DNA from: Clostridia bacterium
Lineage (GTDB): Bacteria; Bacillota; Clostridia; TANB77; CAG-465
Length of the DNA: 43,370 nucleotides
Reading direction: 5' to 3'
Assembly: GCA_017478805.1 (NCBI GenBank)
Contig: JAFVCY010000094.1
Coordinates: 1 to 43,370, forward strand
The position numbers and the translations under genes were made by a program. Positions 23,337 through 25,645 of the stretch are shown here, in pieces. The first letter of the stretch is position 1. Every line of letters starts with the position of its first letter. The notes beneath the pieces are model-generated. The model ran no database searches and was not told the origin of the DNA. It was given only the letters and a program-made list of their open reading frames with translations.

Positions 23337-23681
23337 TTAAAAATTATGATATTTGTTATAAAAATCATTTTGCTTTAACACTAAATTAAAATCTTGTTTA
23401 CAGTTTATTACATAAAATACATAAACTATATTTTTCTTTTTAGATATATAATACATTATCCTATATCCTTCTTTTCTATTCCTTCTATATATAACCTCTT
23501 TAAACCTTTTATCATTTATTTCAGGAATATATCTTCCAATATATGAAAAATAATTTAATTTTTCTAAATACTGATTTATATTCATATCAACCTTTATTGC
23601 ATTATTAATCGAATAATTACAGTTATTAAGAAAAATATTATGGATACACATTTTAGCCGAATTTTCTACTATAACTTTCAT
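23337..23681 (-). CDS. RelE/ParE-type toxin
   Basis: 114 residues, basic. The fold signature is readable: long N-terminal helix pair, YIGRYIPEINDKRFKEVIY, GYRIMYYISKKKNIVYVFYVINC. This matches the RelE/ParE superfamily, whose members cut ribosome-bound mRNA or poison gyrase. AAGGAAATAT precedes the ATG. The gene overlaps the upstream small gene by 29 bases, a usual arrangement for antitoxin-toxin pairs. Target is not decidable from sequence. Confidence 0.7.
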   Translation of the reverse strand: MKVIVENSAKMCIHNIFLNNCNYSINNAIKVDMNINQYLEKLNYFSYIGRYIPEINDKRFKEVIYRRNRKEGYRIMYYISKKKNIVYVFYVINCKQDFNLVLKQNDFYNKYHNF

Positions 23682-23871
23682 ATATTTCCTTTCTTTCTTT
23701 TATATAATCCTCAAGTGGAGTTCCATTACCCATATTAATATCATTTACTCCCTTCTTAATACCCATTAATACTTGTAAGTTATATATACATCCATAGAAA
23801 GTTCCATCATCTTCTTTATTATTTCTTAAATAATCAGTTATTTTATCTAGTTCTAAAACTTCTTCTTCCAT
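23653..23871 (-). CDS. Probable antitoxin, 72 aa
   Basis: Acidic protein (MEEEVLELDKITDYLRNN) of 72 residues directly upstream of and overlapping the RelE/ParE-type toxin gene. The position and charge suggest the antitoxin. No DNA-binding domain is recognised. GGAGGG is six bases before the ATG. Confidence 0.55.
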   Translation of the reverse strand: MEEEVLELDKITDYLRNNKEDDGTFYGCIYNLQVLMGIKKGVNDINMGNGTPLEDYIKERKEIYESYSRKFG

Positions 23872-23889
23872 ACTTTCCCTCCTTTTTTA

Positions 23890-24084
23890 TTATATTACAT
23901 TTCCTATTATATTTCTTATACACTCTTTATCACCTTCAGATAAATCATCTACTCCATATGTATCTACATACTTTTTAGTTACATCATATATTATTTCATT
24001 AAAATCTTTTTTTAGTACTTCTTCATCTATATCATATGGCAAAGACTCAATCGTTTTTATAAACCTTGCTTTAACTTCTGACAT
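23890..24084 (-). CDS. Small acidic protein at the head of the toxin operon, 64 aa
   Basis: Not recognised. I start it at the ATG after GAGGAGTTTAT (24084). It is acidic and helical (FIKTIESLPYDIDEEVLKK). It is the first of three tightly packed genes with the antitoxin and toxin, so it may be a regulator or part of a three-component module. Confidence 0.5.
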   Translation of the reverse strand: MSEVKARFIKTIESLPYDIDEEVLKKDFNEIIYDVTKKYVDTYGVDDLSEGDKECIRNIIGNVI

Positions 24085-24110
24085 ATAAACTCCTCTCTTT
24101 TCTTTTATGT

Positions 24111-24152: not shown

Positions 24153-24313
24153 GCATAATTATAATTCAAATACAATAATTTTGGCTATATTTTAAAATTT
24201 TTAATTAAACTTTCCATACAAAAAAATTTCAATTTACATAAATTATTTACTTCATTAAAATAAATTTTGTCGGAAAATATTGAAACATTTGTTTTATTTT
24301 TTTGACATTTTTC

Positions 24314-24342
24314 TTGACTTTAGGATAATGATTTGCTATAAT
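24314..24342 (+). promoter_or_regulatory. Strong promoter of the small hydrophobic peptide gene
   Basis: TTGACT (24314-24319), 17-base spacer, TATAAT (24337-24342). Predicted transcript starts at about 24349, right at the GAGGATACGTCT arm. Confidence 0.7.
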
Positions 24343-24349
24343 ATTTATA

Positions 24350-24635
24350 GAGGATACGTCTTTAATATATCAGATGTTTTTCCCTTCCTTTTATTCTAAG
24401 TTATTTTTTCTTTTGAATAAAGAAAGGGGGCTAAAATTATGTCAAAAAGAGAAAAAACACTTTTCGATATAATTCTACTACTAATTATGGTGATAATATT
24501 ACTAATTATTTAAATTTATATCATAATTAATAAAAAGCATCTGATTTAAGCTTCTAGCTTATTTCAGATGTATCTCAAATAAAGGGGAATGCATCTGATT
24601 CGACGATTTCAGACGTATCCTCTTTTATTTTACGC
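24350..24635 (+). repeat. Long-range inverted repeats around the small hydrophobic peptide gene
   Basis: GAGGATACGTCT (24350-24361) is repeated inverted as AGACGTATCCTC (24611-24622). CAGATG/CATCTG arms recur at 24371, 24538, 24565 and 24592. On the plus RNA, the 5' end can pair with the 3' end; on the minus strand a CATCTGA/TCAGATG hairpin with TTTTTATT (about 24530-24570) could end an antisense RNA. This resembles the folding of type I toxin mRNAs. Confidence 0.55.
24439..24513 (+). CDS. Hydrophobic 24-residue peptide, candidate type I toxin
   Basis: GAAAGGGGG lies eight bases before the ATG. The product is MSKREKTLFDIILLLIM plus seven hydrophobic residues: a basic N-terminus and one membrane helix, as in type I toxin peptides. 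Its mRNA is flanked by long-range inverted repeats and has a strong promoter. No family match is known to me; the assignment rests on architecture. Confidence 0.5.
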   Translation: MSKREKTLFDIILLLIMVIILLII

Positions 24636-24777
24636 TTAGAAGCATAAAATAAATTCTATACTTTAAGTATATCACATATATAGCTAAAATACAACCTCAA
24701 TTTTAAAATTTTGCTGTATTTTTATCTAGGTATTTTTCAATATTACATTTTTTTCACTTGTTCTATACTTCTATATA

Positions 24778-25645
24778 TCATTTCTTCTCCCAAATAGTAG
24801 TTACTCCACAAGGAAGGCACATACTGCTATTTTCACACTTAATACCAATTTCTTCTGACTGAACACAACTTAAGTCTTTTTCATCAAAAGCCTTCATAAG
24901 AGCAGTCTCAATTATACTTCCAGAAAGTCCACCTGTATATGTATTTACCATTACAAAAAGTGGCTTTTCTGATAGAAGCTGTTTTAAATCAGATAAAAGA
25001 TTAAATAAATCCTTCTCAATAGACCAAACCTCACCATTTTTACCTCTACCATAAGAAGGTGGGTCAAGAATTATTGCATCATATTTATTTTCTCTTCTTA
25101 TCTCTCTTTTAACAAATTTAACCACGTCATCTACAATATATCTAACTTTGGCGTTTTCTAAACCGCTTGCCTTAACATTTTCTTTAGCCCATGAAACCAT
25201 ACCTTGAGAAGAATCAACATGACATACACTTGCGCCAGCTTTCAAGCAAAAAGTAGTTGCAGCTCCTGTATATGCAAATAGATTTAAGACCTTTATCTCT
25301 CTTTTTGCATCTTGTATTTTGTTAAAAGCAAAGTTCCAATTTACTGCTTGTTCTGGAAAAAGACCTGTATGTTTAAATCCCATTGGCTTCAAATTAAAAG
25401 TAATTCCGTCTATACTTTACAAGCCAAGAATCTTTCATATCTTTTAGCTTTTCCCACCTGCCTCCACCACTTGAGCTCCTTATATATCTTGCATGAGCCA
25501 TTTTCCAAAGCTCCGGCTTTTCCTTTTTAGTCCATATAATTTGAGGGTCTGGCCTAATTAAAATATACTTTCCCCACTTCTCCAGCTTTTCACCACTTGC
25601 CATATCAAGTAGTGCATAATCTTCAAAATCATCTACAACTTTCAT
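24778..25645 (-). CDS. Class I SAM-dependent RNA methyltransferase (RlmI-like), +1 shift at CGG 25406-25408
   Basis: 288 residues after recoding. The N-terminal part (zero frame, 79 residues) contains GRWEKLKDMKDSWLVKYR; the frame then reads CGG and stops four codons later. Skipping the C yields Gly, then ITFNLKPMGFKHTGLFPEQ, which is the family's normal continuation. Downstream: FAYTGAATTFCLKAGA (SAM motif I), VDSSQGMVSWAKENV and AIILDPPSYGRGKNGEVW (motif IV DPPSYGRG). Members methylate cytosine in rRNA; the N-terminal PUA part is short here, so the exact target is uncertain. Another ATG inside the second frame could start a shorter protein, but it lacks a ribosome site. Confidence 0.82.

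Follow-up and report, generated by a model that had tools for sequence, protein, structure and literature searches.

The stretch of Clostridia bacterium DNA analysed in this study (the window; 43,370 nucleotides) contains, at positions 24286-24712, a locus that is best explained, at a probability of roughly 0.8, as a chromosomal type I toxin-antitoxin (TA) module, one of a dispersed family that is restricted to its lineage. The type I identity was proposed by a sequence-only reading of this DNA, and it is strongly supported for the architecture of the locus by sequence-level tests of that architecture and of its conservation. The module looks like a previously undescribed sequence family within type I TA systems, since neither the peptide nor the RNA showed similarity to a described family. 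It would add to type I TA a peptide family that lacks detectable relatives; the genome concerned has about 1.4 Mb, and the searches revealed no other member in its group.

Proposed convergent genes and predicted RNA folds

The boundaries of the repeated unit, drawn from blastn against the genome of origin and from alignment of the copies, enclose a putative toxin gene, a putative antisense gene and both of their promoters. On the plus strand, the strong promoter claimed earlier was located at 24314-24342 (TTGACT-17-TATAAT), with transcription expected to start at approximately 24349-24350; in the alignment, TTGA(C/A)(A/T)-17-TATAAT is also present in copies C2, C80, C81 and C54. A Shine-Dalgarno sequence, AAAGGGGG (24423-24430, plus strand), stands 8 nt upstream of the ATG of the putative toxin open reading frame (ORF), MSKREKTLFDIILLLIMVIILLII (24439-24513, plus strand; 24 amino acids). 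The 3' end of the mRNA (24582-24634, plus strand) combines a local hairpin and U-tract, likely the sense terminator, with two 3' arms at 24582-24599 and 24611-24623.

The antisense promoter (24666-24694, minus strand) is of the extended -10 type, TTGTAT-17-TGaTATACT, with its -35 hexamer at 24694-24689 and its -10 hexamer at 24671-24666. The sequence-only reading had placed the TATACT near 24669, leaving the TGa extension and the -35 unmentioned, and had noted a minus-strand hairpin with a T-run; the latter was confirmed at 24571-24531, where a hairpin and then TTTTTA form the predicted intrinsic terminator of the antisense gene. When the sequence was re-read, all of the features named in that reading were found where it had put them or within a base or two. 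With an expected start at approximately 24659, the promoter and predicted fold define a putative RNA antitoxin of approximately 129 nt (24531-24659, minus strand). The promoter (-35, -10, 17-nt spacer, and the TG extension or a near match to it) is kept in seven of eight copies, while the predicted fold of the antisense RNA (z = -5.8), with three hairpins and the terminator hairpin, is common to six copies, including the divergent C52, among which four pairs have changed on both sides. The opposed promoter and terminator argue most strongly for a minus-strand RNA as a functional component of the module and point, as far as sequence evidence goes, to an overlapping antisense RNA gene with its own promoter and terminator. 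The predicted end of this RNA, at approximately 24531, lies downstream of the toxin stop at 24513, and its complementarity is limited to the 3' UTR of the mRNA; because it ends past the stop, it could act only via the 3' UTR.

The toxin mRNA has a predicted fold of -92.8 kcal/mol (z = -9.3) in which three blocks of 13, 3 and 17 pairs join the 5' leader to the 3' UTR. Long-range 5'-3' folding had been proposed from a 12-base inverted repeat, and it is borne out in the prediction well beyond those bases. The repeat itself corresponds to the outer helix, in which the 5' arm AGAGGATACGTCT (24349-24361, plus strand) forms 13 pairs with AGACGTATCCTCT (24611-24623), and the CAGATG/CATCTG arms, also remarked upon earlier, lie in the inner helix, where 24369-24377 pairs with 24591-24599 and the pairing is extended by TTCCCTT/AAGGGGAA, such that the complete inner leader arm is ATCAGATGTTTTTCCCTT (24369-24386, plus strand) and its partner 24582-24599. 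None of 500 dinucleotide shuffles matched the best leader/3'-UTR pairing score of the window copy, and 90% of the cells of the long-range helix are paired across copies, compared to 33-54% when the arms are slid. Covariation within the long-range helix amounts to two double changes, including one compensatory change from C-G to U-A in the outer helix of C52; with few sequences, this number is not above that of column shuffles because most pairs never vary.

The CCCTT of the inner leader arm has an alternative partner in the ribosome-binding site. The hairpin that buries the Shine-Dalgarno sequence (24382-24429, plus strand; arms 24382-24396 and 24415-24429) is kept in all six of the copies that can be folded (C32, C80, C81, C54, C52 and C2), and a second predicted hairpin (24435-24473, plus strand), with 76% of its cells paired and weak covariation, holds the start codon. 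The result for C2 comes from the constrained folding, since its row in the shuffle test, with a misplaced start codon, is invalid. The divergent C52 keeps both alternative leader pairings in largely different letters: its Shine-Dalgarno hairpin pairs CUCCACUUA.GAUAUUG with CAAUAUuUGUAAGUGAGG, and its own 3' UTR contains CAAUAUCCUAA, a perfect complement of the same leader segment, UUAGGAUAUUG. In a shuffle test of the C52 leader region, 20 of 1000 shuffles were equally good, which makes this modelled dual pairing suggestive but not decisive.

Under the type I reading, an mRNA of approximately 280 nt (approximately 24349-24632, plus strand) would encode a short hydrophobic peptide whose head is basic. 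Hairpins that take in the Shine-Dalgarno sequence and the start codon, together with the folding of the 5' leader onto the 3' UTR, would keep translation of this mRNA low. A constitutive-looking extended -10 promoter on the minus strand would drive a short RNA (approximately 24659-24531) against the 3' UTR of this mRNA, and the two RNAs would pair through their 3' parts. The series GAGGATACGTCT...ATCAGATG...TTCCC(C)TT runs in the same order in the antitoxin RNA and in the mRNA 5' leader, and this shared order suggests competition with the leader for the 3' UTR. By copying the leader sequence, the antisense RNA may displace the leader, which, once freed, may close the Shine-Dalgarno hairpin; such mimicry of the mRNA's own leader, with a switch into the closing hairpin, is put forward as a tentative model at well below even odds, and the occurrence of both leader pairings in different letters in C52 makes it directly testable. 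Constrained folding leaves the Shine-Dalgarno sequence mostly hidden, and its accessibility low, both with and without the 3' UTR. A strong form of the switch, in which the site is open at full length and closed once the 3' UTR is occupied, is not clearly borne out by this folding, and the predicted concealment without the 3' part does not favour AapA/hok-like activation by 3' processing. The mRNA/antisense duplex would be a substrate for RNase III, for which a gene is present. Upon loss of the antisense RNA, the peptide would be made and the membrane damaged or depolarised. The pairing arms of the antisense RNAs are nearly identical between copies; therefore, antitoxins may also act on the mRNAs of other copies.

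The peptide and its proposed role

The 24-residue basic and hydrophobic peptide described in the sequence-only reading is indeed encoded as an ORF, but it is not typical of the family, since an earlier in-frame TAA makes it 7-8 residues shorter than the peptides of intact copies, which have 31-32 amino acids (MSKREKTLFDIILLLIVVVLSLIVLIFFIIK or MSKREKSYFAIILLLIVVVLLLLIILLIFIIK). The N-terminus, REK followed by a hydrophobic stretch, is conserved across copies. That reading had named a frame not conserved in relatives as evidence against itself; the small hydrophobic-peptide ORF is conserved as a frame across diverged copies, with pN (0.07-0.18) below pS (0.26-0.40) between distinct copies over the first 20 codons. 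This excess of synonymous over non-synonymous change indicates that the peptide frame has been under purifying selection. A break at codon 3 disrupts the frame of C52, whose RNA structures are still present, a combination that fits type I TA, where decaying copies are usual. The copies have decayed to various extents, and in C52 the RNA structure has survived the loss of the frame; together they form a natural record of module gain and loss.

The peptide of the window copy may be weakened by its shortening, and it is possible, if somewhat doubtful, that decay of the toxin locus has left this copy with a role at the RNA level only, either as an antitoxin or as a decoy acting in trans on other copies. 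The premature TAA and the intact RNA parts, with pairing arms that hardly differ from those of other copies, would both be expected of such a locus. However, the 24 residues retain the head and a hydrophobic run of approximately 14, and the promoter, Shine-Dalgarno sequence and frame are intact. Decay of this one copy is in any case compatible with the family being a type I TA family.

The toxin role of the family is putative, and it is also conceivable, at rather low probability, that the same RNA layout serves a small, antisense-regulated membrane peptide with a function other than toxicity (e.g., a regulator of a membrane protein). The present peptide lacks the highly charged C-terminal end that is frequent among type I toxins, which counts against type I TA and is in keeping with a non-toxin. 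The family searches can be read in the same way: the peptide had no match in Pfam, NCBIfam, PHROGs or PADLOC, where very short peptides limit sensitivity, and none to TxpA/BsrG, BsrE, YonT, Fst/Ldr, Ibs, Hok or AapA, not every one of which may be modelled in these libraries. For the RNA of the locus, there was no match to an Rfam covariance model. On the other hand, dispersal in multiple copies, several inactivated copies, translational locking and an antisense gene accompanying each copy typify type I loci and favour a toxin.

Copies within the genome and the search for relatives

The sequence-only reading had suggested looking for dispersed copies, and these were found in the same genome by blastn and covariance models. 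In the blastn search of this genome (1.44 Mb, 102 contigs), the unit also occurs at C2 (86% identity), C80 (79%) and C81 (78%). Contigs C26 and C54 have partial copies at their ends, C5 carries the 3' part, and C80 and C52 contain remnants. In total there are at least seven related copies in addition to decayed remnants, or approximately ten that are intact or decaying, and their gene neighbourhoods differ. At the end of C26 and the start of C54 (G000), the contig breaks fall inside module copies, as assemblies do at repeats; the true copy number is probably above that seen. Two further relics were observed. At G000:C52:1689-1766 (minus strand), a weak remnant recovered with the peptide profile, SKRSNFFDMIILKIMVIILLISLIFIALIR, precedes a palindrome and a T-rich stretch, and it is possibly an older copy of the module. 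At L010 (G000:C80, 240-1101), toxin-promoter sequence persists as a relic with 86% identity directly upstream of a 245-amino-acid ORF, which may encode a DUF1016/YhcG-type protein.

Around the window copy, no signs of prophage were seen in the adjoining sequence. Three small adjoining ORFs (114, 72 and 67 amino acids; 23337-24093, minus strand), with no Pfam match, lie beside the module on one side. On the other, a SAM-dependent methyltransferase gene (Methyltrans_SAM; 24778-25645, minus strand) is split into ORFs of 204 and 83 amino acids by either a frameshift or an assembly error near 25393; in two congeners the gene is a single frame of 293 amino acids, and the module is absent beside it. 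This absence, together with the scattering of copies among different intergenic sites, would also suit a small mobile or MITE-like repeat in which the palindromes function in transposition and not in RNA regulation. Such an explanation is very improbable, as no terminal inverted repeats or target duplications were noticed at the unit edges in the alignment, and both the reading frame and two opposed promoters are under selection. Promoter-like and short-ORF matches are common in AT-rich DNA (15 found versus 9.5 expected), but chance palindromes and a chance ORF can be dismissed: the fold z-scores (-9.3 and -5.8) speak against chance, and conservation in diverged copies already refutes it.

Outside this genome, covariance models built on the 5' part and the 3' part had no genuine match in 37 genomes of the family, 339 of the order (5' part) and 391 of the class, and the peptide profile gave no convincing match in 146 genomes of the order and 391 of the class. 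No real relative was obtained by blastn and tblastn of plasmids and phages, or by patterns and the peptide profile in viral and species-level genome contig collections; these named collections may omit the window's own genome, so absence from them is uninformative on very near relatives. Several candidates were rejected upon inspection: a match at G033:C28 is inside a larger membrane-protein gene resembling rodA; another at G535:C38 amounts to one terminator hairpin, lies in GC-richer DNA and does not fit the leader model; and peptide matches in G034, G108 and G122 are without the leader hairpin or antisense features. Among the genomes sampled, the family was seen in this one only.

Comparison with known type I systems

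The Fst/RNAII system (par of pAD1) is made up of convergent transcripts with a buried ribosome-binding site, both of which are predicted here; it differs in that the present peptide has no Fst-type match and the present antisense arms lie in the 3' UTR only. The clostridial modules CD2517.1-RCd8, CD2907.1-RCd9 and CD0956.2-RCd10 of Clostridioides difficile, with their relatives, are convergent, overlapping and multi-copy, and encode hydrophobic peptides of 34-59 amino acids (PMC6563280). The present family shares their convergent, overlapping layout, copy number and small hydrophobic products, but not the peptide itself: in the C. difficile toxins the N-terminus is hydrophobic and the C-terminus lysine-rich (PMC7699646), whereas the present peptide is charged at the N-terminus (MSKREK) and has a single terminal K.

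In Bacillus subtilis, TxpA/RatA relies on 3'-3' pairing and RNase III cleavage, and in BsrG/SR4 the binding of SR4 extends the stem that hides the Shine-Dalgarno sequence and RNase III cleaves the duplex (PMC6562991). The present locus resembles both in its convergent genes, predicted 3'-end pairing and ribosome-binding site held in a short stem, and the overlap restricted to the two 3' ends, together with the Shine-Dalgarno hairpin in the toxin mRNA, corresponds to the BsrG/SR4 mode. It differs in its unrelated peptide, as judged by Pfam, NCBIfam and PHROG searches, and in the long 5'-3' pairing (approximately 30 bp) predicted here. That pairing is shared with AapA/IsoA of Helicobacter pylori, which is multi-copy within one genome and in which the AapA mRNA forms a 5'-3' long-distance interaction and metastable Shine-Dalgarno hairpins during transcription (PMC6733600). 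A conserved long-distance interaction of the AapA/hok type, accompanied by local hairpins that mask the Shine-Dalgarno sequence, is likewise present in the predicted fold of the toxin mRNA. In contrast to AapA/IsoA and hok/Sok, to which no sequence relation was found, the antisense RNA of the present locus is confined to the 3' UTR and leaves out the leader and the ribosome-binding site. BsrG/SR4 and AapA/IsoA provide measured precedents for separate steps of the proposed mechanism (PMC6562991, PMC6733600).
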